A DNA stretch of 64,000 bases. Source: Pseudanabaena sp. FACHB-2040 (GTDB taxonomy: Bacteria > Cyanobacteriota > Cyanobacteriia > Phormidesmidales > Phormidesmidaceae). The stretch lies in the NCBI RefSeq assembly GCF_014696715.1, contig NZ_JACJQO010000017.1:62001-126000 (forward strand). The letters are read 5' to 3'. A program made the position numbers and the translations under genes. The notes under the pieces were generated by a model, which saw nothing but the letters and a program-made list of their open reading frames with translations, made no database searches and had not been told where the DNA came from. This document shows positions 29,685 to 44,344 of the stretch, one piece after another (the stretch's first letter is position 1; the number at the start of each line of letters is the position of its first letter).

Positions 29685-30404
29685 AATGTGTACTCCATCA
29701 ATTCCCCAACCAATTAATTTAGAGGGAAATCATCGATCATCCCTGTCTAGAAATCCAGCATGAACTGTGGCAGAGAACATGCTGTCCTCTACCGCTTCAA
29801 ACTAGAAAGCTTTTAGTCTTTACCGCCAGAGGTTAAATACACCCCTGAAACCTTATGTTTGGAACGTAGACTATCTATACCCAATGAGGCGTGAAATTTT
29901 AGCAGTAGACTGTGCTCAAATAGCTGTTCGAGTAAACCGAGAGAGATGCACTAACAAATGGCTCAGAGATGAGATAGTCTTAAGAACCTCTACCCTCTAA
30001 AGATCGGTAGATTTACTGATCCTCCTTTTTCAGCTTTCATAAACCGCTAGCTGACTTGCTATGCGGAATTATGAACCTAGATGATAGTTCCCGGCTAACA
30101 GGTGAAAGAATCATCAAAGCCTTGTGAAGCGTTTCTTTTTTTACAGATGTTTACTCGTTCGGCTCGTTGAATATCGCTTTTTTCTAGAGTTGTTAGACGC
30201 CTCGATTTATTTTTGTGAATCTGAGGCCTTCTGATACCCGTTCTTTAGCGGCAGGTTTCGGCTTGGTTCAAAAATCGCGGTGATAGCGTTTGGGGCAGTT
30301 GAGCTGCAACCGTCTGATGAGCCAATGTTCTGCGGCTGAGTCTGTTCTCTGCTCATCGAACTCGGGTTAAACTACCGACAACGTGAAGCAGGACGTGGGT
30401 AGCC
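29685..30404. other. Long intergenic region between divergent genes
   Basis: About 720 bp separate the giant minus-strand gene from the BASS transporter gene. No protein frame was accepted. It holds an inverted repeat at 29819-29837 (TTTACC/GGTTAAA) similar to the one before the other giant gene, and a terminator-like hairpin at 30002. The AT-rich leader next to the giant gene probably contains its promoter, but no -35/-10 pair stood out. Confidence 0.5.
30002..30030 (+). terminator. Intrinsic terminator-like hairpin without an annotated upstream gene
   Basis: GATCGGTA and TACTGATC pair (one G-U) around GATT and are followed by CCTCCTTTTT, a good plus-strand terminator shape. No plus-strand gene lies upstream in the intergenic region, so it may end a small RNA or an antisense transcript of the giant gene leader. 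Confidence 0.4.
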
Positions 30405-31268
30405 ATGGAGTCAAGCTTTTTAACGGCCGTGTTTTTACCGCTGGCACTATTTGTGATCATGCTAGGTATGGGGTTGGGGTTGAAGCCAGCCGACTTTACC
30501 CGAGTTTGGCGCTATCCAAAAGCGGTGATGATTGGACTGTTTGCCCAAGTGGTGATGCTGCCAATAGTGGGCTTTATACTGGTCTCAAGCTTTCCGCTTC
30601 CCCCAGAGTTAGCGGTTGGGGTGATGGTTTTAGCTGCTTGCCCTGGCGGCCCTACCTCTAATATGGTGACCTATCTGGCTGGGGGAAATGTGGCGCTGTC
30701 GATTACGTTAACGGCCATCAGCAGCTTGATTACAGTGCTGACTATTCCATTGGTGGTTAACCTAGCGATGGGCGCTTTTTTGGGAGAAGGCACCTCCCTG
30801 CAGCTGCCCTTTCTCTCCACGGTGCTGCAAATCGCCGTGATTACTGTTATTCCAGTTACGCTGGGCATGGTGCTGCACCGCTACTTACCGCAGTTTGCGA
30901 CCAAAGCTGAACGCGGCGTCAAATGGCTGTCACTGTTTTTGCTGGGGCTGATTATCGTTGGCCTGTTGCTGCAGCAGCGAGCCAATGTGATGGCCTTTTT
31001 TGCCCAAGTGGGGCTGGTGACGCTGGCTTTGAACGTAGTGGCGATGGCGTTGGGCTACCTGATTGCGACGCTGGCCAGGCTGGATCGGCCCAGTTCTACA
31101 GCGATTACCCTGGAGGTGGGAATTCAGAACGGGACACTTGCGATCGCAATTGCCAGCGCCCCATCGCTGCTCAATCAACCCACTTTGGCAATTCCTGCTG
31201 CTATCTATAGCCTACTGATGTTTGTCACGGGAGGTCTCTTTGCAGGCTGGGCTGCTAGGCAGAGATGA
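30405..31268 (+). CDS. BASS-family (bile acid:sodium symporter type) transporter
   Basis: The 287-residue protein has about nine or ten hydrophobic segments covering almost its full length. It carries two family signatures: LAACPGGPTSNMVTYLAGGN (about residues 74-93) and LEVGIQNGTLAIAIA (about 240-254). In BASS proteins these crossover regions bind sodium and the substrate. Cyanobacterial and plastid members carry organic anions such as pyruvate, bicarbonate or glycolate-like acids; the substrate here cannot be assigned. The start is ATG at 30405. The perfect hairpin at 31304 separates it from the convergent methyltransferase gene. Confidence 0.9.
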   Translation: MESSFLTAVFLPLALFVIMLGMGLGLKPADFTRVWRYPKAVMIGLFAQVVMLPIVGFILVSSFPLPPELAVGVMVLAACPGGPTSNMVTYLAGGNVALSITLTAISSLITVLTIPLVVNLAMGAFLGEGTSLQLPFLSTVLQIAVITVIPVTLGMVLHRYLPQFATKAERGVKWLSLFLLGLIIVGLLLQQRANVMAFFAQVGLVTLALNVVAMALGYLIATLARLDRPSSTAITLEVGIQNGTLAIAIASAPSLLNQPTLAIPAAIYSLLMFVTGGLFAGWAARQR

Positions 31269-31303
31269 TCTTTTGCCCGTTAGAATCGGCTTGAGCTGCT
31301 ATG

Positions 31304-31320
31304 CCACTATTTAATAGTGG
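31304..31320. terminator. Palindromic hairpin between convergent genes
   Basis: CCACTATT and AATAGTGG pair perfectly around one T. The hairpin lies between the ends of the BASS gene (+) and the phosphorothioation-associated methyltransferase gene (-). It lacks a long T-run. Confidence 0.5.
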
Positions 31321-31323
31321 GGA

Positions 31324-33396
31324 TTATTGCTTTGCGGCACCTTTTGAGCGCATTGCAGCACTGATTACCTTCTTTTGATAAGGGTCGGCATCTTTGCGCC
31401 AAACGATACGGTGGCCTTGCAGATCGGCGCAATGATCCTCTAAGCACCGCAGCCAGCCACGTCGATCCATAATTTTCGTCACGTCATCTAGCAGGCCCCA
31501 TTTCCGCTCTTGCTCACTGAGCTTGGCAAACTTGGCATACCCCGGGTAGTCTGGCGTGATGAGCTGTTCTTTTTGATGCAGCAGGGGCGGATTATCCTCC
31601 GGGTCGTGGTCTTGATAGCGGACGTGTAAATCCCGCAGGCCAATAGACATGCTGGTGTGCAGAGCCGGATGGGGGTCTGTATCAAAGTCTGGATAGAACA
31701 GGTAGGTAATTCTCGGCTTGTGGATATGGAACTTTACAACCGTTGCTCCATCGGGTCGCCCCAAGGTGCGAGAGGCACAGCCTTCGTAGAGGCGTAGGAG
31801 TGGGTCAAGCTGCTCTAGGGCTGATACGTGAACCCAGAGTGAGTTGGGGCGCTGCTGACCAATGGGGCTATTGCGGCAGTGCTCTGCGATCACCTCGGTT
31901 CGGCCCAGGCTCATCAGCATTAGGTCTGCTGCGGTACAGGCTTGCTGATAGCTGCCAAAAAGCGCCTTGATGTCTGCCTGGATGGTGGGCGATAGGTCTT
32001 TGAATTTGGGGCGTTTGCCGAAGTGGCTGAGGGCGAGATAGACCAAGAGATCGTTGCGACGCTTGTCTGCGATCGCATCCCACTCGCCTGTATCGGTCGC
32101 CTGCAGAATAATCTTGAAGGCCTGCTTGAGGCTGCCAAACTGCGCCTGTAATGGCTCACAGCCATAGGTGTCGACTTCTTCAACGGCAGGCAGTCGCCCC
32201 CGCTCGGTATAGAAATCCATCAAGGGCTGAAGCAGGTTCCGGTATTCCTCAAATCGGCTGACCTTTAAGCGGATTTGGGGAGCCTTGGCCCGTGAGCGGT
32301 AGCGAGAGGCGCGAAACGTCTCTGCCTGGGCCTCATCTCGAAATACAAAGTAGATGCCCAGCGCAACCGGCACCGCATCTACCCCCAACACCTGATCGAT
32401 GTAGGTCTTTAACTCTTCCTGTTCGTAGTATTTCTGGAAGGTGTTGCGGCTGGTAATAATGCCGTCGCCGTAGGCAATCACGCCACGGGTGCGGTCATCA
32501 ATCAAGACTTGGGCGGCGACGATCAGCACCTTTTGAGCCAGCTTCCAGGCGTTAATGAGGGCTTCTCGCCGTTCGGCAGTGTCTTCAATGACGTTGATCA
32601 CGTAGCCCAGGTTCACTACACCTGCTGCGGTGCGGGGATTGTCGGGGCGGAAGTAGGGATCCCATCCGGCGCTGGTGTGCCCCAGACGGCTGATGTACTC
32701 AATATCGGCCCCATGACCGCAGCCATAGTCAAAGTAGGTGGTGTTGGGTTCAAACAAGCCCGCTTCAACCGCTAGGCGAACGGGTTTGGAGGCGGTGACG
32801 CGGGCGATCGCAGCTTTGTGCCGCTGAATCTTGGGCTTAGCTTGAGTCGGTGTGATGGCTCCTGGTTGAAGGGGGCAGGCGAGGGCATGGTCGTGGATGA
32901 TCAGGTTGCGATCGCACACCCGCTTCTCCCAAGCCTGCCGAAACCCAATACCGCGAGACTCCTCCAGCAGCCCCAGCACTTCCTCCTGCTTGGTCAACCA
33001 GGCAAAGGTCGAGTAGAGCGGGTAGTCAGGGGTAACAAAGGCTTCCTTGCGGTGAAGCACCGGGGGATTGTCGGTCGTACTGTAATCTCGTGATCCAATG
33101 GTCAGCGTCTTTAGATTGACCTGAATGCTGCTTTGCAAAGCAGGATGAGCCTCAGTATCAAAATCTGGGTAGAAAAGGTAGACAATTTGAGGCTTATTGA
33201 AGCTGAACTTAACGAGGGTCGCTTCATTAAGTTGAGGAGAGGCCGCTCTGGCCTGCTGCTCTAAAGTCTGGAGTTCTGAGGCGAGAGCATTTAGAGCAGA
33301 AAGATGAACATAGAGCGCCTCCGGCAGTCGCTTTCCCACAGGGCTGCGCTGGCATAGCTCCACATAGGACTCTAACTGAACGGGTACGCTCACCAT
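31324..33396 (-). CDS. DNA phosphorothioation-associated putative methyltransferase
   Basis: The 690-residue protein fits the family found beside dnd DNA-phosphorothioation genes (TIGR04096-like, from memory). A central Rossmann methyltransferase domain has motif I FDYGCGHGADIEYI (about 222-235), WDPYFRP and NLGYVINVIED (motif IV region). It is flanked by two copies of one further domain: residues about 10-160 (LVKFSFNKPQIVYLFYPDFD, TPDYPLYSTFAWLT) and about 510-665 (VVKFHIHKPRITYLFYPDFD, TPDYPGYAKFAKLS). The family is predicted to modify DNA or restrict unmodified DNA, but its reaction is unproven. No dndA-E genes are visible in this window. It is monocistronic here. Confidence 0.85.
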   Translation of the reverse strand: MVSVPVQLESYVELCQRSPVGKRLPEALYVHLSALNALASELQTLEQQARAASPQLNEATLVKFSFNKPQIVYLFYPDFDTEAHPALQSSIQVNLKTLTIGSRDYSTTDNPPVLHRKEAFVTPDYPLYSTFAWLTKQEEVLGLLEESRGIGFRQAWEKRVCDRNLIIHDHALACPLQPGAITPTQAKPKIQRHKAAIARVTASKPVRLAVEAGLFEPNTTYFDYGCGHGADIEYISRLGHTSAGWDPYFRPDNPRTAAGVVNLGYVINVIEDTAERREALINAWKLAQKVLIVAAQVLIDDRTRGVIAYGDGIITSRNTFQKYYEQEELKTYIDQVLGVDAVPVALGIYFVFRDEAQAETFRASRYRSRAKAPQIRLKVSRFEEYRNLLQPLMDFYTERGRLPAVEEVDTYGCEPLQAQFGSLKQAFKIILQATDTGEWDAIADKRRNDLLVYLALSHFGKRPKFKDLSPTIQADIKALFGSYQQACTAADLMLMSLGRTEVIAEHCRNSPIGQQRPNSLWVHVSALEQLDPLLRLYEGCASRTLGRPDGATVVKFHIHKPRITYLFYPDFDTDPHPALHTSMSIGLRDLHVRYQDHDPEDNPPLLHQKEQLITPDYPGYAKFAKLSEQERKWGLLDDVTKIMDRRGWLRCLEDHCADLQGHRIVWRKDADPYQKKVISAAMRSKGAAKQ

Positions 33397-33521
33397 GTTT
33401 CTGGAAAAGCTCTGCTCTAAAGGATCTCTAAGCTGCTCCCTATCCTATCGAACCATTGGGAATGTTTCTTGAAGCAGACAGATGGGAACTCTGAGGGGCA
33501 CTTACGTAAGGAGTGGATTAG

Positions 33522-33722
33522 ATGAATCAGAGACAGCCGTCACCTATCCCCTGGTTTCCTTTGGCATTTCCGGTTTCCTTCGTTTCAATATCGGCTTCTA
33601 TTTCGCCAAATACGCTGCTAGGCGACCTCGGTGAGCTGGAGCGGTATGCAGCTCTATTTATCCTGGCTCTTTTAGCAACGGGCATCATTGCAGGCGCATT
33701 GATCGATGAGTTGACCAGTTAA
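33522..33722 (+). CDS. Small membrane protein, hypothetical
   Basis: The 66-residue frame begins with a proline-rich hydrophobic stretch (SPIPWFPLAFPVSFVSISAS) and has a clear membrane helix near its end (YAALFILALLATGIIAGALI, about residues 42-61). AAGGAG lies about ten bases before ATG, which supports translation. I do not recognise the family. It stands between the divergent methyltransferase gene and a hairpin repeat, so chance cannot be excluded. Confidence 0.5.
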   Translation: MNQRQPSPIPWFPLAFPVSFVSISASISPNTLLGDLGELERYAALFILALLATGIIAGALIDELTS

Positions 33723-33796
33723 CTGAGTTATCTGCTTTTCCACAGGCCTGTTAATTAATTCATAGGGTGAACATTGTCCTGCCAAGCGGCCTCTCA

Positions 33797-33870
33797 TAGG
33801 TTGGTTAAAGCTTGGCGAAACCCAACAGTTTAAGGGGCTTGTTGGGGCTCGCAAGCTCGATACCAACCTA
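33797..33870. repeat. MITE-like hairpin repeat (TAGGTTGG type)
   Basis: Arms TAGGTTGGTTAAAGCTTGG and its imperfect complement ending TACCAACCTA pair around a short loop. It belongs to the same class as the element at 56760 (GTAGGTTGGGTT...AACCTAC), common in cyanobacterial intergenic regions. It carries no coding frame. Confidence 0.65.
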
Positions 33871-33981
33871 CAAGAAGGGTCTCGACACGCTACTAGCAGG
33901 ACAGACAAAGCAAAGCGCGCCCAGCAAAGCCTATAGCGAGTGTCTCAACCACAATTGAAACGTGGGCGCACTGCTACAAGA

Positions 33982-34282
33982 CTATGCTTGCGGCCTAACT
34001 GACGGATAGCGCTGGAGGTAGCGCAGCACATCACCAGGATCGGGGCGTACCAGCAGGCCGCCTTCGGGGATGTCAACGACGTGGCTCCACTCAAACTGCT
34101 CGGCATAGCCGAGGTGATGCAGACTTGCGATCGCACCTCGCGTATCAGCATCAGATCCCACTAAATAGGCGTAACCGTCTACGCCGGGGCTGCACCAGAG
34201 GAATCTGGGGCGCAGCAGGCTGAGTCGCCGCCCCCCAGGTAGGCTCTAGGGGAGACGACAGAAAATATTGAATTTGCAGCAT
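33982..34282 (-). pseudogene. Frameshifted gene for a conserved-looking 99-aa protein
   Basis: Reading from ATG at 34282 (AAGGAA upstream) gives MLQIQYFLSSPLEPTW, then the frame is lost at a run of six C on the plus strand (34231-34236). Removing one base of the run joins it to GGRRLSLLRPRFLWCSPGVD, GYAYLVGSDADTRGAIASLH and HLGYAEQFEWSHVVDIPEGG, ending RYLQRYPSVRPQA and TAG. The interval is 301 bases, exactly 100 codons plus one base. The rejoined product has the look of a compact folded protein, but I cannot name it. The shift may be a real mutation, phase variation at the homopolymer, programmed slippage or a sequencing error. Confidence 0.6.
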
Positions 34283-34302
34283 GATCAGGGGATTCCTTCA
34301 AA

Positions 34303-34518
34303 TCAATGGGTAGGAATCCCCGAAATCTGGCCACCCATGACATGAGCGAGTAGCAGGGCGGCTAAAATTAGCACAGCCCGTGCGACAGCTTGGACTGTCT
34401 TTCGGGTTAGCTGCCGGTTTGTGTTGGTCGCACTTGCCGGTAGCGTCGGACTCAGTTTTCGGGGAAAAGCAAGCTGCTCTGCAACAGCTATGAGGATCGA
34501 TATTAGGTCATCTGATCC
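34303..34518 (-). CDS. Small one-helix membrane protein with no standard start codon
   Basis: An open frame between stops at 34519-34521 and 34303-34305 reads ILIAVAEQLAFPRKLSPTLP, then a basic stretch (NRQLTRKTVQAVARA) and a membrane helix (VLILAALLLAHVMGG), ending QISGIPTH. It lies 20 bp upstream of the frameshifted gene and the sequence looks coding. No ATG, GTG or TTG occurs before the helix. Translation would need ATA, ATC or CTG, or the front may be damaged. The exact start is unknown and the boundaries given are those of the open frame. Confidence 0.35.
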   Translation of the reverse strand, partial: GSDDLISILIAVAEQLAFPRKLSPTLPASATNTNRQLTRKTVQAVARAVLILAALLLAHVMGGQISGIPTH

Positions 34519-34599
34519 TCAAACACAAGTAACAATTGACACAGAAGCTCAAAGTTTTACCTGTGGAAGCCGGAGCCAGAATCGTAGGCTGGGCTAAGG

Positions 34600-34938
34600 C
34601 TAAAACAATCTTCTCCGTCTGGTCAGCATCTTGTAGCCAATGCCCATCATCGTCAGCGACAGAAAGAACTGCCACAGGCTAGTGGGGCTCAAAATAGCGC
34701 GACTGCTAGCAAACACACAAATAATGCCAAAGGCCACTGCTACCCAACCCAAAGACTTAACAGCCGATGGCAGAAACACCAGGGCAAAGACACCGATACA
34801 GAGGGAAAGAACCGAGACGTCGGCAGCAATACCTCGCCACCAAGGGTAAGCATGGGTAGTAAATACAATGTTCTTACCCAAGAAGTAAATACCCAACAAA
34901 ATCAACGCTAGTCCAAAGATGTAGGAAAAAAATCGCAT
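34600..34938 (-). CDS. Small four-helix membrane protein, hypothetical
   Basis: The 112-residue protein has about four hydrophobic segments (residues about 4-22, 38-57, 62-80 and 86-103) and a basic tail (KMLTRRRRLF), so its C-terminus is probably cytoplasmic. GAAGG lies eight bases before ATG. It follows the nuclease cassette on the same strand after an 86-bp gap and could be cotranscribed with it. I do not recognise a family or function. Confidence 0.65.
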   Translation of the reverse strand: MRFFSYIFGLALILLGIYFLGKNIVFTTHAYPWWRGIAADVSVLSLCIGVFALVFLPSAVKSLGWVAVAFGIICVFASSRAILSPTSLWQFFLSLTMMGIGYKMLTRRRRLF

Positions 34939-35024
34939 AATGCCTTCACAGGTATTAATGGGTAGATTATTGAAATTGGCTAAAGCCTAGACTTTTACGT
35001 AGTTACTCATCTTGCAATCAGGCT

Positions 35025-36425
35025 TCAATCGAACTCGGCCAGATTACGCAAGAAGTAAAAGCGATCATTCTGCGAGTTTTGACTTTGCACTCGCCCTAAG
35101 TAGCCCAATAGTGGTGAGGAAAGCTCTATCAGTATTTCGTGAAACTGCTTTTGAGGTAAACGTTTAGGAGGATTGGAAGCAGTATAAACACCAAAGAGCA
35201 CATCTATATTGACGTCTGCTTCTTCAACCAAGTCTAAGTGCTTTTTAACCGTCTGAACAATATATGATCTTAACTCTACTTCCTTTGAAACCTTTTCAAT
35301 ATACTCATCGATCTTATGGTCAATCTGTCCCGGCTCTAGGTAGTCCTTTAACTGAATCAAGTTTACTGAACCTGGATATTTGGCCTGTAATTCAACTAGC
35401 TTTTGCAAACTCATAGGATTAATGATACTAACTCTCCACTTTGCTGCTGCGGTCAAAACATCTTGAGTAGGTTGACCAGGGCCAATAACTAACTTTGCAG
35501 AGTTAAGGAACTGCTCCGTATCTAAATGCATTCCTCCAAGCCTAATCAATTCCTGAGTTGTTCCGCTAGGAATTTTTTTGCCCGCTTTGCATTCACCCAC
35601 CAAGGGATACGGTTTCGAGCAATATAAATCTAGGCCGCCCGCCCCACCCCTGTGGGCTTGATCAATGGAAAAACCGAGGAAGGTAAGGCTATCCCGCACG
35701 ATGTTCTCAAAGTCTGTACCTGCCTGATAGTTACTTTTTCCTGTGTCGTCTTCCTTACTACGATTGCCTAAAGAGACAATTTCATGAATCCAGTCCAACT
35801 CTGACTTTTTTTCCTTCAGAGCTGTTTTACTCTTCCAGCCTAGAAAACTTTGGACGAGATCGTCTAGGCTCTTAGCTCTCTCGTCTCTAGCAGCCAATTC
35901 TGCAATAGACTTCTGTAGTTCTTCTAATTCAGGGTGTGGAGGTAGCTCTAGATTCGTTAGCTGTTGCTTGCGCTGATAAAAGAAGTCATCAGGCAACACA
36001 GGATTATTTTGAATAGTTGATGGGAAGTTAGGCAGTTTAATAAAACTCCCTATCCGGTTAGAGTTGAGGTTTCCCGATTTCAGCTCAACGGGTTGGGGTA
36101 TTTGAAATACACGCAAGCACAGTAGAAAAAGCTTGTGGCGTTCCTGCAAAGCGCTCTGTAGCTCTTCGTTTGACCAAATGGTTAACCGCGCAAGCTTTTC
36201 TATGTCTTCAGGATTGCTATAGATTTTGCAGGACTCAAGCTTTGCCCAAAGGTTAATAGAAATAGTGGGATTACTATTTCGTTCTTCAATAGGGCAAAGG
36301 GCAAACTGCTGCATCGAACCAATAAACGTTCGAGATAAAGCAGCAATCATTCGCCCTTTGCCGAGTGCTGCGACATCTAAAGCTGGCAAACAAAGCGCAG
36401 TGTTGATCGACATCGCGTTACTCAT
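35025..36425 (-). CDS. PD-(D/E)XK nuclease-domain protein (third gene of cassette)
   Basis: The 466-residue protein has an N-terminal region (about 1-170: CLPALDVAALGKGRMIAALS, LTIWSNEELQSALQERHKLF, PPHPELEELQKSIAEL) like cyanobacterial proteins I recall being labelled DUF1802-type; this label is unverified. The central region has a restriction-endonuclease-like core: Glu240 in a helix (TDFENIVRDSLTFLGF), then GGAGGLDLYC with Asp266 and VGECKAGKK with Glu278-x-Lys280. The C-terminal part is helical and charged. The likely reaction is metal-dependent DNA cleavage. It starts 14 bp after the ATPase stop, so the two are probably translated from one message. AAGGA-type sites are weak. Confidence 0.75.
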   Translation of the reverse strand: MSNAMSINTALCLPALDVAALGKGRMIAALSRTFIGSMQQFALCPIEERNSNPTISINLWAKLESCKIYSNPEDIEKLARLTIWSNEELQSALQERHKLFLLCLRVFQIPQPVELKSGNLNSNRIGSFIKLPNFPSTIQNNPVLPDDFFYQRKQQLTNLELPPHPELEELQKSIAELAARDERAKSLDDLVQSFLGWKSKTALKEKKSELDWIHEIVSLGNRSKEDDTGKSNYQAGTDFENIVRDSLTFLGFSIDQAHRGGAGGLDLYCSKPYPLVGECKAGKKIPSGTTQELIRLGGMHLDTEQFLNSAKLVIGPGQPTQDVLTAAAKWRVSIINPMSLQKLVELQAKYPGSVNLIQLKDYLEPGQIDHKIDEYIEKVSKEVELRSYIVQTVKKHLDLVEEADVNIDVLFGVYTASNPPKRLPQKQFHEILIELSSPLLGYLGRVQSQNSQNDRFYFLRNLAEFD

Positions 36426-36439
36426 CAGTATTTATGCAG

Positions 36440-38332
36440 TTAAGCGACCGACAAAATCTCTAAAGCCTCAGATGCTTCATCATCAGATGTACCAGCAGTC
36501 TCTCCAGAGAGCAGTTCTCCAAGCCCACTATCTTCGTCAATGACTTCCTGAGGACTTTGTCCTGAGGGGTCACTCAAAATATCACGAATAAGCGGGTTTT
36601 TAAGAATTGGCCGTTTTTCATCTATGAAGCGGTGAAAATCTGCCTCAGTAAAAAAGTCTCTATCTAGTTCTCTAGACATTTTATGAAGCGTGAGAAGGGG
36701 TTTGATTTCCTCATCCTTGAAAGACACCCATTCCCCACCCTGTCTTCCCAAAAGTTGCTCTAAGCCCGCATTCGCAACTTGCCAATGTTTTTTGATTGAC
36801 TTTGACCTAATTAAGCAACCACGGGTCAAGTCAAAGTCCTTGTATAAAGTTAAATACTTAATACAGGCTCCAACGCTTTTACCGTGAACATCTTGCACAA
36901 CAGAAACGCCAATTTTGACTTCTTTCCCATTCTCCTCACCAAGAATTCTAAAGTTAATACGTCTGCTATGTTTTGAGCGAGGGTAAACTTCTCGATCTAA
37001 TTCTTTGAGAGTAACGCCTTCTACTGTTTTTCCTTGCAAATGCTGTAAGCCAAAAGCTAAGGCATTCGCAATCTTTTCATTGTCCTCTAAGAAATCATCT
37101 AATGTAGCTTCAACTTGTTGGTAAATTCTTTCAAGCTTCTCAGTTGGATCAGCTTTGACCGAGCTAAAGTTTTGAGCGCACCACTGTAAAATATCTCTAA
37201 CCGCTGCTCCATCTCCAAATTCTCGAAGCTGGCTCTCTTCAAAGGGATAAACAGCATGAGGAGGGGTTAAGCCTCTTTCGGAATAGAACTTCTCAAGCCA
37301 AAACGCCACTAACATGACAACGTCATTGGACTTTAAATAGCTTAATCCTATTTCTTTTTGGGCCATTCGATCCTTGACACTGCTGCTCTTAGAGATAGTT
37401 TGAAACTCTTCTCTCCAAGTTTGAGCGTACAAAGCAGTTATCAGAATGCCACGCTTTAGGCTGTTATAGATGTCCTTTGCCAAGCTAGCAACTACCTGCG
37501 CCCTGGTGTAGCCTCCTAGCATGGGATCTGATTCATCTGCTAGTTCTGTCCCATCTAGCTCATCAAAACAGATGACGGGCGTTGTGTAGTAGCTAATTAG
37601 AGCCAATACTTGACGAGCAGTATTAGATGCCTCTACATCTCTGTCATCTTTGCTGAGGTCAGGCAAGTCCATCATGTTTGCCTGCGCTTCAGATAGATCT
37701 CGACCAGCAAGCCAGTTAACCGCAAAGGGAGCATGGGCCTGAGATAAAGTCCAGAGAATTGCTTTGACAATATAAGGGTTATCAACGTCTGGACATTTTT
37801 GCAGAATCTTCTGGGTTAAGTGATTAATAACTTTAGGATTTTTTGCCAGCGCTTTTGGAAACTGCTCAATTAGCTGTTTTGGTGCAAGGTTTTTCTCCAT
37901 TCCCAGATTGACTAAAGCTGTAGCCAACTCCTGCCACTGCATCACTCCCTGATTTCCTAGCTTTCTCAAGCTGAAGGCTAGGCTTTGCAAAAACTGGTGC
38001 TTGATTAGGCTTAGGTTGCCATATTCACACATGTAAATGAAGAATCCTTCACCCTTACGCTTTAGGTGATGACGAATTCTACTCAGAACATGAGTCTTCC
38101 CCACCCCTTTAGGAGCTAGAATGGCAAACCCAACTGTTCCACTCTGCAACTGTCCAGAATTGATTTTTTGAATTGCTTCCAAGATGCTTTCTGAAGCATG
38201 GGTATGCAAGCAGGGCAAGTCTAGGAAATTGTCATCCCAAACATGGTAAGACTTGGTAACAAAATTGCTCTCAAACGGATTGCATTCCTGAATAGCTTCG
38301 TTGAGGGCTTCAGGGGAAGAATAGGCCGACAT
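36440..38332 (-). CDS. AAA-type P-loop ATPase (second gene of cassette)
   Basis: The 630-residue protein begins NPFESNFVTKSYHVWDDNFL, then has Walker A APKGVGKTH (73-81, Lys79) and Walker B VICFDELDG (253-261, Asp257-Glu258). The arrangement resembles ORC/Cdc6-like or BREX-type (BrxD-like) ATP-binding proteins. A helical insertion of about 170 residues lies between the Walker motifs (NWLAGRDLSEAQANMMDLPD near its end). After the ATPase core (to about 400) comes a domain of unknown type (about 440-560; RRINFRILGEENGKEVKIGV, YKDFDLTRGCLIRS). The tail is acidic (DEDSGLGELLSG). It probably loads on or senses DNA and controls the nuclease encoded next. Confidence 0.8.
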   Translation of the reverse strand: MSAYSSPEALNEAIQECNPFESNFVTKSYHVWDDNFLDLPCLHTHASESILEAIQKINSGQLQSGTVGFAILAPKGVGKTHVLSRIRHHLKRKGEGFFIYMCEYGNLSLIKHQFLQSLAFSLRKLGNQGVMQWQELATALVNLGMEKNLAPKQLIEQFPKALAKNPKVINHLTQKILQKCPDVDNPYIVKAILWTLSQAHAPFAVNWLAGRDLSEAQANMMDLPDLSKDDRDVEASNTARQVLALISYYTTPVICFDELDGTELADESDPMLGGYTRAQVVASLAKDIYNSLKRGILITALYAQTWREEFQTISKSSSVKDRMAQKEIGLSYLKSNDVVMLVAFWLEKFYSERGLTPPHAVYPFEESQLREFGDGAAVRDILQWCAQNFSSVKADPTEKLERIYQQVEATLDDFLEDNEKIANALAFGLQHLQGKTVEGVTLKELDREVYPRSKHSRRINFRILGEENGKEVKIGVSVVQDVHGKSVGACIKYLTLYKDFDLTRGCLIRSKSIKKHWQVANAGLEQLLGRQGGEWVSFKDEEIKPLLTLHKMSRELDRDFFTEADFHRFIDEKRPILKNPLIRDILSDPSGQSPQEVIDEDSGLGELLSGETAGTSDDEASEALEILSVA

Positions 38333-38392
38333 AATATTTAGCGAGGAGGTGGGCTAGGAATGGCTAAGCGGTAAAAGGATTGAGCTAGCTTG

Positions 38393-39070
38393 TTAACGCT
38401 TCACATAGCAGCGCAGCTTGCCCAGTTTGGTCGTAACAGAGTCTTCGATTTTGTCGGGAGCGCCATCTTCCACGCTCTCTTCCAATAGCTGAAGAAGATT
38501 CTCAGACTGCATTTCAAACAGCCACTCATTAAATTGAGACCGCGAGACTCGATTACCGATTTCCCTACGAATGCGGTAAACAGGCACCATATTGCCCATG
38601 TTGTAATCTTGATTGAGATGATTAAACATCTCTAGTGCAACCTGCTTGAATTCTTCATAAGAGCCAATGGCATCGCTTACGGCCTTACCGTTTGTTGCCG
38701 CTCCCTGTGCCGTTGCGCCTGTCTGCTGAATCCACTGGTTTAGTGCTCTTGCTACCCAGGCTCCTACGATGGTTCCCTCAATCGCCAAGCCAGAGTTCTT
38801 CAAGTGCTGACCCAACAGGTCTTTCCCTTCATTTAAAAGGGCGACTTTCCCTGCCGTGATTTTGATTGCGCCTTTATCTTCTAGTTGAGAAAATACATCA
38901 TTGTAATCGCTGCTCTTTTCGCCCTTACGCTTAAGCCGCTCAGTCAACTTCCCTTTAGGAACCTCTGTCTCTCCCCAGGACCATAAAGCTAGAAGTAACC
39001 GAGTTGAGCTATTAGCAGTTTGAGTATTTATACTTGTAGATTTCTTGGCTGCAACTGTTGCTGATGTCAT
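38393..39070 (-). CDS. Two winged-helix-domain protein (first gene of cassette)
   Basis: With the start at ATG 39070 (AGGAG seven bases upstream) the product is 225 residues; a longer frame from 39127 lacks a ribosome-binding site. The first winged-helix-like region is about residues 20-90 (TRLLLALWSWGETEVPKGKL, VFSQLEDKGAIKITAGKVAL). The second is about 130-215 (SYEEFKQVALEMFNHLNQDY, VPVYRIRREIGNRVSRSQFN, EWLFEMQSENLLQLLEE). Such proteins bind DNA or act as adaptors for ATPases. It precedes the ATPase gene by 60 bp on the same strand. I know no named family for it. Confidence 0.7.
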   Translation of the reverse strand: MTSATVAAKKSTSINTQTANSSTRLLLALWSWGETEVPKGKLTERLKRKGEKSSDYNDVFSQLEDKGAIKITAGKVALLNEGKDLLGQHLKNSGLAIEGTIVGAWVARALNQWIQQTGATAQGAATNGKAVSDAIGSYEEFKQVALEMFNHLNQDYNMGNMVPVYRIRREIGNRVSRSQFNEWLFEMQSENLLQLLEESVEDGAPDKIEDSVTTKLGKLRCYVKR

Positions 39071-39503
39071 AGCAATTCTCCTGAGTCCTGTGACAAGCAC
39101 TTTCTTCAGTAGAATGCCCCTGTTCATCCATCAAATCACGAACAAACTTCAAAAGTTGTTGAAGTCTAGATGAGTCTTTGTAAAGCTTAGAATAAGGGAT
39201 TTTGTTTTGAGGGGCAACAGTGCCAATTGTACTGACGTTGTTGAAGCAGAAGCCCTCACACATCAGGTTTTAATTAGAATCGAGCCGTTGTTATCAAGTT
39301 TTTTGTGGAGTGCCTATAGGGCATCGCAGAGCCAGAGCTTTGAAAGCAGGAGTCGGGCGCAGGAGTAGAAGGTCTGCTGATTCAACTGCTGAGTTCCGCA
39401 GCTATAGCCAAAACGGTATCAAAAGATACATTTTACCTCCGCAAATCTACAAATAATTAAGCTTGGTCTAAGACCAGTGCTCTATCCTATCGTCCAAACT
39501 TTT
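39071..39503. other. Divergent intergenic region
   Basis: This stretch separates the three-gene cassette (-) from the acetamidase gene (+) and must hold both promoters. A minus-strand frame from ATG 39263 overlaps the front of the winged-helix gene and was not accepted. The segment before 39504 is AT-rich. No clear -35/-10 pair or operator was found. Confidence 0.4.
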
Positions 39504-40826
39504 ATGCCAAAGCGTCGCGACTTTCTGGTGGGCAGTGCTGCTGCTGCTGCTGCTGCCACTTCTCTACTGCATACAACAAACGTTAAAGCTCAAACCAAAC
39601 GAGAAGAAATTAAAGCTTTACAAGAGGGTTTTGTCGGGCAGTATCAAGGCGGAGTTTATCTTCTTCCCGCGACGAATGAAACTGTGCAATGGGGCTGGTT
39701 TAATAACGCTGAAACTCCCCGTGCTCGCATTCAGTCTGGAGATACCATCATTCTTGAAACCATGATGGCTTCTCAGAACCAAATTCTACCAGGCGTTTCT
39801 ATTGAAGAAATTACAAAACTGCGGGTAGATCACCCAGGGCGCGGACCACACACTGTGACAGGGCCAATTTTCGTTGAGGGTGCACAGCCTGGCGATGTCC
39901 TTAAGATCAAGATCAACCGGATTGTACCGCGCTCCTATGGCACTAACTGGAACTTGCCAGGTGAGTTGAATCTAGGGCAATTTCCGCAGCTTTTTCCTGA
40001 ACCACAAGCGAAACACTTCTACCTTGACTTGAGGCGGGGAGTCACAGAATTTCTACCCGGTATTGAATTACCGGTGCGCCCTTTTCCAGGCATTTTGGGT
40101 GTTGCTCGACCTGAAAGTGGCCAGTATAGTACCGTTCCTCCGGGTCCTTTTGGTGGAAACTTGGACTGCCGGGAAATAGTAGAAGGCACCACCGTCTACA
40201 TCCCAGTTTTCGTAGAGGGTGCCCTGCTTTGGTCGGGAGACTCCCATGCTGTTCAAGGAAATGGTGAGATTAACTTAACTGCAGTAGAGTCGGCATTTAA
40301 TGAGCTGAATCTCACCGTTGAGGTAATCAAAGGCCAACCTTTAACTTGGCCTAGAGTAGAATCGCCTACACACTGGTTGACCTTGGGCTATGACCGGGAT
40401 ATGAATACCGCCATTCGGATTTTGGAGGAGGAAACCATCAAGTTCATCTCCGAATGGAAAGGAATGAACAGCCGTGAAGCGCGTCAGTATATGACTACCT
40501 ATGGCGATATTCGAGTTGCTGAAGTGGTAAACCAACTCAAAGGGGTTTATTGCATGCTGCCTAAAGAAGCCAGCCCAGCTTTACCGCCACTCCCTCAAGC
40601 AGACACGCGTGACTATTACGTCACGCACGCAGTAAATGCAGACGCAATGGAGGCCATGAACGTATCTGCACTAGCCCTGATCGAACGGATTCAGGAAGAG
40701 AAAGGGCTAGTCCCACTAGATGCTTACTCTTTGGCGAGTCTGGCGCTAGATGCTCGCATCGGTATTTTAGAACCCGGAGCACAAAACGTTCATTGCCTAA
40801 TGCCCAAATCTGTTTGGGTTTCTTAG
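39504..40826 (+). CDS. Tat-exported acetamidase/formamidase family protein
   Basis: The protein belongs to the FmdA/AmdA family, which hydrolyses small amides to ammonia and acid. It starts MPKRRDFLVGSAAAAAAATSLL, a twin-arginine signal (RRDFLVG) with a likely cut after KAQ, so it probably acts in the periplasm. Family regions seen are VDHPGRGPHTVTGPIFVEGA (about 112-131), GPFGGNLDCREI and the metal-site motif GDSHAVQGNGEI (about 249-260). A GTG 27 bases upstream (39477) could extend it by nine residues; the ATG is preferred because it places the Tat motif at the start. Family members are usually cytosolic, so export is notable. Confidence 0.88.
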   Translation: MPKRRDFLVGSAAAAAAATSLLHTTNVKAQTKREEIKALQEGFVGQYQGGVYLLPATNETVQWGWFNNAETPRARIQSGDTIILETMMASQNQILPGVSIEEITKLRVDHPGRGPHTVTGPIFVEGAQPGDVLKIKINRIVPRSYGTNWNLPGELNLGQFPQLFPEPQAKHFYLDLRRGVTEFLPGIELPVRPFPGILGVARPESGQYSTVPPGPFGGNLDCREIVEGTTVYIPVFVEGALLWSGDSHAVQGNGEINLTAVESAFNELNLTVEVIKGQPLTWPRVESPTHWLTLGYDRDMNTAIRILEEETIKFISEWKGMNSREARQYMTTYGDIRVAEVVNQLKGVYCMLPKEASPALPPLPQADTRDYYVTHAVNADAMEAMNVSALALIERIQEEKGLVPLDAYSLASLALDARIGILEPGAQNVHCLMPKSVWVS

Positions 40827-40889
40827 TCTGAGCGGGTTTTCGTCTGAATCCGCCATAAGAACGACACAGCAGATGCTCCGCTGCTAGTA

Positions 40890-40927
40890 AAGCCCTAGAT
40901 CCTTGCTTTGCCTGAGATCTAGGGCTT
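40890..40927. terminator. Bidirectional terminator between the acetamidase gene and glmS
   Basis: AAGCCCTAGATC and GATCTAGGGCTT form a perfect 12-bp stem with a 14-nt loop. It lies between the convergent acetamidase gene (+) and glmS (-), so it can serve both. Confidence 0.8.
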
Positions 40928-40937
40928 CAGCATAGCT

Positions 40938-42845
<1,908 letters not shown>

Positions 42846-43073
42846 GGCAGATTCCTCAATAAATGGAATGTCTGAACTTCCTAATGAGTAACGTTGCGTC
42901 ACATTTTTTAGCTGCTCAATAGGATACACGCTGCACTGGACCTCAAGATTAATCGAGAGACAGTTTTATAGAGGTATCTAAATGCCAACTGTTCTCGCCT
43001 GACTTCTCTGAAGGGGCAAACCTGCTAGATAAAAGATCAGCCCGATAGAAACCCTAAGGGGCTGGAGATATCG

Positions 43074-43868
43074 ATGTTTGATCAAGCTGCACAAGTCGCT
43101 GACCGGCCCATTTTTCAAATCAAGATTATCAACGGCAACACCTGCGAGGAGATGACCCAGAGCATTGACGCAACGGCACAGGCGGTGCGATCGCACACCA
43201 CCACCCTCACCACCGTACAGCCCAAAAGCGGCCCTGCCTCAATTGAGTGCTACTACGACGAATATCTGGCGATTCCCGGCATTCTAGAGCAAATCATTTT
43301 AGATACCGACTCCCACGCCTTTATCTTGGCCTGCTGGGGTGACCCCGGCATTGAAGCGGCCCGCGAAATCACCCGCCGCCCAGTGATCGGCATTGCTGAG
43401 GCCAGTATGTACGTTGCCAATATGCTGGCCGCTAAGTGGAGCGTGGTGACCACCACCCATCGGGTGCGAGACATGGTTGAGAAAACAGTGCAAAAAACGG
43501 GCTTTGGCAGCCGTTGCGCCTCAGTTAGAACGACAGACCTAGCGGTGCTGGAGACGTGCGATCGCACTGCCACCCTCGCAGCCTTAATTGACATGGGCCG
43601 CCGCGCCATTGAAGAAGACGGGGCCGAGGCGCTGTGCCTAGGCTGTGCCGGCATGAGCGGGCTCGATCAGGCGTTAGAAGCCGCTCTACAAGTCCCTGTG
43701 ATTGATGCCGTGGCGGCAGCCGTCAAGCTAGCAGAGTCGCTGGTCGCGCTAGGCAAGACCACCAGCAAGCAGCTCACTTACCGTTCCCCTGAACTCAAGC
43801 CAATTCAGGGATATCCAGACTACATGCAGCCAAAATGTCTGCAGGAGCAGCAGTTTTTAGGAAAATAA
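43074..43868 (+). CDS. Asp/Glu/hydantoin racemase family protein
   Basis: The 264-residue protein resembles hydantoin/allantoin racemases. It begins IKIINGNTCEEMTQSIDATA, has the first catalytic-type cysteine in FILACWGDPGIEAAREIT (about residues 84-101) and the second in LCLGCAGMSGLDQALEAALQ (about 191-210), and ends VPVIDAVAAAVKLAESLVAL. The two-cysteine pair performs proton abstraction on each face of the substrate in this family. The natural substrate is unknown. GGAG lies eight bases before ATG. A 29-codon frame overlaps the stop by one base (TAATG), suggesting coupled translation. Confidence 0.88.
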   Translation: MFDQAAQVADRPIFQIKIINGNTCEEMTQSIDATAQAVRSHTTTLTTVQPKSGPASIECYYDEYLAIPGILEQIILDTDSHAFILACWGDPGIEAAREITRRPVIGIAEASMYVANMLAAKWSVVTTTHRVRDMVEKTVQKTGFGSRCASVRTTDLAVLETCDRTATLAALIDMGRRAIEEDGAEALCLGCAGMSGLDQALEAALQVPVIDAVAAAVKLAESLVALGKTTSKQLTYRSPELKPIQGYPDYMQPKCLQEQQFLGK

Positions 43869-43957
43869 TGGGAAAAAAGGGGCGAAACACTGCTGATGAA
43901 ACCCTTGCAAAACTGCGTGGACTCATTCTGCAATACCTCGCCCTCAAGCTGGGGTAA
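43868..43957 (+). CDS. Possible coupled 29-aa protein
   Basis: ATG at 43868 shares its A with the TAA of the racemase gene, an arrangement for translational coupling. The frame reads MGKKGRNTADETLAKLRGLI, then LQYLALKLG, and stops at 43955-43957, ten bases before the convergent gene ends. It would form a short amphipathic or hydrophobic helix with a basic start. No family is known to me. It may be chance. Confidence 0.3.
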   Translation: MGKKGRNTADETLAKLRGLILQYLALKLG

Positions 43958-43966
43958 GCGAAATGC

Positions 43967-44344
43967 CTACTTCTTCATGTCCCGGGCCATATTGCGGAAC
44001 ATGTCCATGCTGCTGTCGAGCTGCCGCTTAGACTGCTCTTGCTTGGGCGCAGCAGATCCGTTGGACTGACCATTCAAGGTGATTTCAGGAGAGCCATCTT
44101 CAAGCAGACGCTGCATCTGCATAGCAGAGATTTGCTTGACGCTAGCTAGCTCCTCGGCCACTCCTTTCTTGCGGGCAAAGGTGCGCCTCACCGTCTTGCT
44201 GGTGCGCATGTACTCGATGTTGCCATAGGACTTGGCATCATCAGCATCTAAAAAGTAAGCTGCCTTTTCCTGTGGGGTAAGAGGCCGCTGCTCTTCCTTC
44301 TTTTTGCCATTACCACCAAACAAACCGCGAATAAATCCGGTCAT
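43967..44344 (-). CDS. Cyanobacterial conserved hypothetical protein
   Basis: The 125-residue soluble, charged protein starts MTGFIRGLFGGNGKKKEEQR. It has a conserved-looking core YFLDADDAKSYGNIEYMRTS, then KTVRRTFARKK, a low-complexity linker with LNGQSNGSAAPKQEQS and a helical end (SSMDMFRNMARDMKK). AGGAGAGG stands just before ATG. Similar proteins exist in cyanobacteria without known function, in my recollection. It converges on the racemase gene. Confidence 0.75.
   Translation of the reverse strand: MTGFIRGLFGGNGKKKEEQRPLTPQEKAAYFLDADDAKSYGNIEYMRTSKTVRRTFARKKGVAEELASVKQISAMQMQRLLEDGSPEITLNGQSNGSAAPKQEQSKRQLDSSMDMFRNMARDMKK

Follow-up and report, generated by a model that had tools for sequence, protein, structure and literature searches.

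The 64,000-nucleotide window analysed here (Pseudanabaena sp. FACHB-2040, contig NZ_JACJQO010000017.1, positions 62,001 to 126,000) carries a cassette of three genes for a predicted winged-helix protein (wh), an AAA+ ATPase and a nuclease, and these three genes are a real co-inherited unit of many cyanobacteria. We consider it probable that the cassette acts as a stand-alone, restriction-like defence against invading DNA. What carries this proposal was computed—a conserved gene triplet, the domain folds, intact active sites and a mosaic exchange of parts between cassettes.

Co-inheritance and predicted folds of the cassette

All three open reading frames (ORFs) lie on the minus strand and are transcribed in the order wh, ATPase, nuclease, with gaps of 60 bp between wh and ATPase and of 14 bp between ATPase and nuclease. 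A first-pass annotation, made from the sequence alone, had described this arrangement, and the ORF coordinates agree with it. The genes and their predicted domains are:

38393-39127, minus strand: wh, predicted winged-helix DNA-binding/adaptor protein, 244 amino acids (aa), first gene of the operon (ORF list, weak Pfam matches)
36440-38332, minus strand: putative ORC1/Cdc6/TnsC-like AAA+ ATPase, 630 aa (predicted structure, fold matches)
37148-38320, minus strand: ATPase residues 5-395, AAA+ domain with Walker A K79 and Walker B D257-E258 (fold match, conservation)
36668-37030, minus strand: ATPase residues 435-555, alpha/beta domain (order of secondary structure in the model)
35025-36425, minus strand: predicted nuclease, ASCH-like (DUF1802) plus PD-(D/E)XK plus winged helix, 466 aa (model, fold matches, conservation)
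36006-36422, minus strand: nuclease residues 2-140, DUF1802 with ASCH/PUA-like fold, possible modified-base reader (Pfam, fold matches)
35391-35798, minus strand: nuclease residues 210-345, PD-(D/E)XK core with E240, D266, E278 and K280 (fold matches, conservation)
35025-35282, minus strand: nuclease residues 382-466 and stop codon, ORC/Cdc6-like winged helix (fold match)

For wh, a start at 39127 or at 39070 is possible; the latter is an internal ATG at residue 20 that would give 225 aa, and conservation sets in from about residue 42.

Each of the three proteins was searched against the same 143 relative genomes, with E < 1e-50 taken as a strong match for wh and nuclease. The ATPase has 20 strong places, 19 adjoining a nuclease gene and one (locus L043) alone. 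Strong nuclease genes number 21—19 beside an ATPase and two alone—and each of the 18 strong wh matches adjoins an ATPase, which in one case is visible only as a fragment at a contig end. The two wh matches that rank next, at E 9e-34 and 8e-29, lack an adjoining ATPase, and one of them is a remnant. A single peptide pattern, derived from the nuclease alignment, was used to scan a contig collection from 84,980 species, and 80 of 153 relatives were kept (79 loci, overlapping with the 143-genome set). Cyanobacteria are named in the titles of 78 of these loci; the remaining contig is filed under a Planctomycetaceae metagenome-assembled genome (MAG). The full triplet, in unchanged order and on a single strand, is present in 74 of the 79, with four of the other five cut by a contig end (L073, L110, L120, L124) and the last (L144) lacking wh and the ATPase start. 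Co-occurrence across genomes, which the first-pass annotation had named as a check on its cassette, is thus what we find. The lone ATPase homologue (L043, 7563-9473, minus strand; about 30% identical) has a VWA protein and metabolic genes among its neighbours.

The distribution is patchy: 19 of the 143 relative genomes have the cassette. In one genus, the same two genes adjoin an intact cassette at L040 and, at L068, a remnant with only the first part of wh, and tandem cassettes or extra copies occur at L094, L147, L125, L135, L118 and L096. The cassette was not found in a same-genus genome (78% complete), where homology ends at window position 31262 and resumes at 40333 on the first base of another contig, so that an assembly gap may lie at that site. 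The neighbouring amidase gene, used as a query, matched in 83 of the 143 genomes and yielded no usable empty site.

Structures were predicted with AlphaFold2 for the ATPase (pLDDT 82.5, pTM 0.70) and the nuclease (pLDDT 85.5, pTM 0.55, with domains better defined than their arrangement). With Foldseek alone, the nuclease had a single match at E <= 0.001 (an ORC chain, 21 Å) and the ATPase none; the Z-scores below come from a second-pass comparison over the Foldseek candidates. Sequence searches of the PDB with profiles of the three proteins returned weak matches only.

Residues 8-393 of the ATPase match archaeal and eukaryotic ORC/Cdc6 proteins (ORC2 1w5t, Z 15.1, 3.5 Å over 244 residues), followed by TnsC (Z 14.0), MuB (Z 13.5), RdrA (Z 13.1) and BrxC 9zdx (Z 12.2, rank 50), and the protein models as an ORC1/Cdc6/TnsC-like AAA+ ATPase. 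The Walker A (K79, T80) and Walker B (D257, E258) motifs are as first described: among 93 distinct ATPases, D257 is present in all 93 and K79 in 92, the last one being gapped at this position. Fold and conservation together place the ATPase in the Orc/Cdc6 clade of AAA+ proteins. The term BrxD-like, brought up at first pass, holds at the level of this clade and not beyond it. Residues 435-555 are possibly an inactive restriction endonuclease (REase)-like domain, as published for related Orc/Cdc6 systems; the fold search is dominated by the AAA+ domain.

The nuclease models as three domains. Residues 2-140 match Pfam DUF1802 (82.1 bits) and resemble 2dp9 (Z 10.0, 3.2 Å over 113 residues) and the ASCH protein ZmASCH 5y6b (Z 9.0, Foldseek probability 1.00). 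Residues 186-381 resemble N.BspD6I 6qnz (Z 14.9, 2.9 Å over 169 residues) and FokI 2fok (Z 14.6, 2.7 Å over 147 residues), and residues 382-466 an ORC/Cdc6 winged helix (7jgr_G, Z 10.9, 1.9 Å over 83 residues). An ASCH-like domain, a FokI/Nt.BspD6I-like PD-(D/E)XK core and an ORC-like winged helix hence appear to be combined, with the REase and the ASCH domain fused in one protein. Pfam Mrr_cat stays below its cut-off in the window nuclease and reaches E <= 0.1 in 10 of 17 members of one alignment (A1). The nuclease core and its residues Glu240, Asp266 and Glu278-x-Lys280 had been proposed from the sequence alone; the residues lie exactly at these positions, and sequence, conservation and predicted fold back the core. 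DUF1802, named in one paper of the literature searched, would gain a likely fold and context from the cassette.

Of 104 distinct nucleases, 99 retain all four residues. Two solo genes and three second copies make up the five that lack E-D-E-K; the second copies sit directly behind a complete cassette, and all five are long open frames:

L051, 4701-6332: solo gene, nuclease relative with destroyed catalytic site
L052, 6024-7661: solo gene, nuclease relative with destroyed catalytic site
L078, 7848-9305: second copy, nuclease relative with destroyed catalytic site
L117, 7679-9127: second copy, nuclease relative with destroyed catalytic site
L131, 7564-9012: second copy, nuclease relative with destroyed catalytic site

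The wh protein belongs to no strong family. SelB-wing_2 is below cut-off in the window protein and reaches E <= 1 in 4 of 14 members, and about 5 of the 15 families that weakly match wh are winged-helix. The two winged-helix-like regions that had been proposed for it thus gain no more than weak support. Elsewhere (L067, 6805-8064), a 419-aa protein near a contig end contains two tandem matches to the C-terminal half of wh.

Mosaic exchange of parts between cassettes

Pairwise identities were calculated segment by segment over 81 loci, with one triplet each and further copies per locus dropped. Nuclease cores are at least 85% identical in 127 pairs, and in 90 of these the AAA domains of the ATPase are below 60%. 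The wh tail follows the ATPase AAA identity closely (Spearman 0.79), as does DUF1802 (0.68), while the core correlates at 0.15; where the AAA domains reach at least 80% identity (29 pairs), the wh tail does so in every case. At 70% single linkage, the 81 cassettes fall into 43 ATPase classes.

A flank test describes whether this happens in place. Among 77 loci with enough flanking sequence, both outer flanks show homology in 98 pairs (36 loci). The ATPase is below 60% in 68 of these pairs and at least 75% in 16, the nuclease core falls below 60% in 37 pairs and reaches at least 80% in 49 pairs, and wh residues 40-195 are below 60% in none. All parts except the N-terminal part of wh (wh-N) are thus exchanged in place, the ATPase most. 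A constant nuclease core, considered as an alternative description, is rejected by these 37 pairs, since the core is exchanged too.

The borders of the exchange can be read from the 36 pairs (21 loci) that combine an ATPase below 60% with a core of at least 80%. In these pairs, the median DNA identity over the longest match is 84% on one outer flank and 90% on the other. On average, identity amounts to 73-89% over wh residues 35-194, 74% over 195-214 and 49% over 215-234; it is 23-66% over ATPase residues 1-580, 54-61% over nuclease residues 1-140 and 84% over 141-160. The contrast between ATPase and core is built into the choice of these pairs; the wh tail and the ASCH domain played no part in it. 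Taken pair by pair, nuclease residues 2-140 are below 65% in 33 of the 36, the wh tail is below 70% in 31, and nuclease residues 141-205 are at least 75% in 25. In the 16 pairs with the same ATPase allele, by comparison, wh residues 215-244 are 88-91% and nuclease residues 1-140 82-94% identical. The divergent block is contiguous and ends at the border of the ASCH domain:

36006-38515, minus strand: block most often exchanged (wh from about residue 205 to 244, whole ATPase, nuclease residues 1-140), placed in window coordinates from exchanges seen in other species and not at the window's own site

Loci are common to several pairs and the pairs are hence not independent, so trees were tested. 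In approximately unbiased (AU) tests on two sets of 9 and 12 loci, 23 of 24 swaps of segment trees among wh-N, ATPase, DUF1802 and core are rejected (p < 0.05); the exception are the Nostocales wh-N data, which accept the ATPase tree (p 0.068). Reverse cases exist as well, namely 11 pairs with an ATPase of at least 75% and a core below about 60%. Mis-assembled metagenomes do not explain the mosaic, as the titles of L104 and L088 call these genomes complete or nearly so and no MAG label is attached to L100 or L107. On the simplest reading of the contiguous block, wh tail, ATPase and ASCH domain need to fit one another and would jointly set what is recognised.

Proposed function and competing explanations

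A role of the cassette in defence is likely. The first-pass annotation had proposed a defence or DNA-processing system of ATPase, nuclease and adaptor; the co-inherited cassette with its nuclease core stands. We infer this role, DNA as the substrate, which part senses what and the order of events as follows. The wh protein and the ORC/TnsC-like AAA+ ATPase would assemble on DNA or on an invader-derived trigger, with ATP binding or hydrolysis as the switch. The ATPase would then dock the nuclease subunit through its ASCH-like N-terminal domain, and the FokI/Nt.BspD6I-like PD-(D/E)XK core would cut DNA. Recognition would reside mainly in the most-replaced block of wh C-tail, ATPase and ASCH domain; the nuclease core is exchanged as well, but less often.

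Several observations weigh against this proposal. The nuclease core is not constant between flank-matched loci, as described above. The DUF1802 and ATPase trees reject each other; the smallest likelihood losses are those of DUF1802 data on the ATPase tree, so that both travel together often and not always. Neighbouring segments also stay together within a recombination tract when their products make no contact, which bears on the proposed interface, and inhibitor escape or neutral recombination might also underlie the exchange. The partner genes are absent beside two weaker wh relatives (G130:C86, G133:C79) and beside the ATPase homologue L043. Searches with nuclease and ATPase found no relative in 72,556 plasmids, the ATPase had no match in 50,697 phage records, and none was confirmed in viral contigs.

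Furthermore, there is no excess of defence families beside the cassette. With PADLOC at E <= 1e-15, 95 neighbour proteins of at least 120 aa from 11 of 14 triplet neighbourhoods matched 19 families, versus 63 for 137 of 138 proteins taken from 11 control regions in these genomes (L152-L162); L163, the control from the window's own genome, was left out. One control region, L153, is on a cassette-bearing contig, some 20 kb from the cassette. Matches beside cassettes include HEC-02, TIR/Thoeris-like, AriA, mad3 and others; those in the controls include, among the matches listed, many Pbe as well as MzaA, IetA and mad3. One or more control regions contain strong PbeA/PbeC-like genes; in L153, the two largest ORFs and five others had no match to Pbe genes at 1e-50.

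A narrower form of the restriction proposal, whose probability overlaps with it, is a modification-dependent (type IV-like) system, in which the ASCH-like domain reads a modified phage base and ATPase and wh only load or license the nuclease. We regard this as a serious possibility, albeit with clearly less than even confidence. DUF1802 models as ASCH/PUA-like, a superfamily that includes the modified-base readers EVE and YTH (PMC7641849), PUA-superfamily sensors fused to nucleases are known (PMC7897488), the divergent stretch stops at the ASCH domain border, and a reader-like domain and an intact nuclease site both appear to be present. However, free-standing DUF1802 proteins of about 200 aa are common in cyanobacteria and suggest other ligands, the whole ATPase also lies within the exchanged block, and ZmASCH is reportedly a ribonuclease.

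The restriction proposal can also be extended: selection by invaders might drive an in-place swap of the recognition block (adaptor tail, AAA+ ATPase and ASCH reader), which genera would share and which would outpace the exchange of the effector core, with the dead full-length nucleases, adjacent to the cassette or separate from it, serving as regulators or nicking partners. This extension is speculative, and we would sooner doubt than adopt it. Should recognition indeed reside in the central block, natural cassettes already pair many different sensors with related nucleases (the 81 cassettes comprise 43 ATPase classes). The target of an ORC-like defence ATPase would then be testable by block exchange between natural alleles, and the known restriction repertoire of cyanobacteria would grow by one operon.

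A housekeeping module for DNA repair, replication initiation or chromosome maintenance would suit an ORC/Cdc6-like ATPase with winged helices, and the same site is indeed kept within some groups of genera. Yet presence in 19 of 143 genomes, patchiness within genera, decay, tandem duplication and exchange of parts fit a host–invader conflict better, making this explanation improbable.

Still more improbable is a restriction arm of phosphorothioation (DndFGH-like), served by a nearby methyltransferase and by a Dnd locus elsewhere in the genome. The first-pass annotation had pointed to a phosphorothioation-associated methyltransferase in the vicinity, and a dnd-related putative methyltransferase of 690 aa is indeed encoded at 31324-33396 on the minus strand (TIGR04096, 850 bits), starting 1.6 kb from the cassette. 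DndC scores over its cut-off on another contig of the same genome (C28), and a DndG-like winged helix-turn-helix (wHTH) protein offers a published parallel (PMC10853773, main text). The link that the annotation hinted at is not supported, however: DndC is over cut-off in 3 of 19 cassette genomes versus 8 of 124 others, the cassette has no translocase and no Dnd/Ssp family match in its three proteins, and no TIGR04096 relative is labelled in the 10-18 kb around the other triplets fetched (L031-L042, L044, L045). The methyltransferase looks like a chance neighbour. This genome's Dnd locus (L065, 2032-4143) contains two shorter ORFs related to it.

Least probable of all is a domesticated complex for transposition-target selection: TnsC and MuB are among the best folds for the ATPase, but no gene family besides the three is common to more than four of the 10-18 kb triplet neighbourhoods—hence no conserved transposase—and the nuclease core is FokI/Nt.BspD6I-like, with TnsA-like cutting still conceivable.

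The cassette differs from its surroundings in composition. GC content is 0.43-0.46 across the block, 0.50-0.51 in the 2 kb before, 0.45-0.50 in the 2 kb after and 0.52-0.58 over most of the remaining 6-64 kb of the window, in line with the AT-rich block noted at first pass. No clear terminal repeats were found around the cassette and no Rfam families at 28000-44000; promoter and terminator scans at the cassette were uninformative. An element of about 570 bp lies at 33990-34571. The genome has 14 copies longer than 500 bp, the window copy included, and two fragments (70-85% identical), a same-genus genome has at least four copies, and no Rfam family matches. A short peptide frame is common to the six copies examined; the window copy seems interrupted.

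Comparison with known systems

Operons of an Orc/Cdc6 ATPase, an ASCH-REase fusion and a DndG-like triple wHTH protein are mentioned in one sentence, unnamed, by Rakesh, Aravind, and Krishnan (2024, PMC10853773, section 22), whose genomics assigns related operons to anti-invader defence in the sections consulted. The composition is that of the cassette, with an Orc/Cdc6-clade ATPase, an REase-ASCH fusion and a candidate wHTH protein; for the last, the cassette has a wh partner in 74 of 79 loci, with weak winged-helix matches. The main text of that study contains neither DUF1802 nor 'cyanobacteri' nor Mrr; the families are probably identical, short of proof, and the cassette is taken here as one of these operons. 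The first-pass phrase undescribed or poorly described was hence too strong in its first half, this composition being in print; as to the second, the main texts of the literature searched gave no name, experimental test, DUF1802 assignment or part exchange for this operon. Rapidly evolving wHTH domains in such systems are described in the part of PMC12839542 consulted.

The same work (PMC10853773, main text) describes capture systems of Orc/Cdc6 with HerA/FtsK and states for these relatives an inactive REase between the AAA+ domain and the C-terminal wHTH of the ATPase. They correspond to two types of locus found here, one at L046, L047, L060 and L069-L072 and one at L049, L050 and L059. As in the cassette, an ATPase relative lies beside a wh-like gene, and nuclease domains are present in the operons examined (L046, L049); an FtsK/HerA translocase takes the place of the ASCH nuclease, fused to exonuclease and PD-(D/E)XK domains in L046 and to the ATPase in L049. 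At loci of the L049 type, the wh-like gene does not cluster with wh. The sister operons of the L046 type consist of a wh of about 270-320 aa, an ATPase of about 660-750 aa (split in L069) and an FtsK-family protein.

With DndFGH/SspFGH, the cassette has the general idea of a DNA-binding subunit, an NTPase and a nuclease in common. Pfam, PADLOC and NCBIfam scans find no HerA/FtsK translocase among its three proteins, and the cassette is uncoupled from DndC. BREX BrxC/BrxD and the cassette ATPase have the ORC/Cdc6 AAA+ fold in common; the three proteins contain no BREX family, PglZ and BrxC/PglY included (the wider window was not scanned for PglZ), and the cassette carries its own PD-(D/E)XK nuclease. 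That the cassette is not Gabija, Septu, Druantia, Wadjet or Zorya, as first proposed, agrees with PADLOC (2023), which returns no family at E <= 1 for any of the three proteins. The EVE-nuclease and other modification-dependent enzymes with PUA sensors also fuse a PUA-superfamily domain to a nuclease, whereas the domain of the cassette is the ASCH-like DUF1802 and two constant partner genes accompany it. The mosaic exchange is new in this work, from which the dead paralogues and the spread through cyanobacteria also come.

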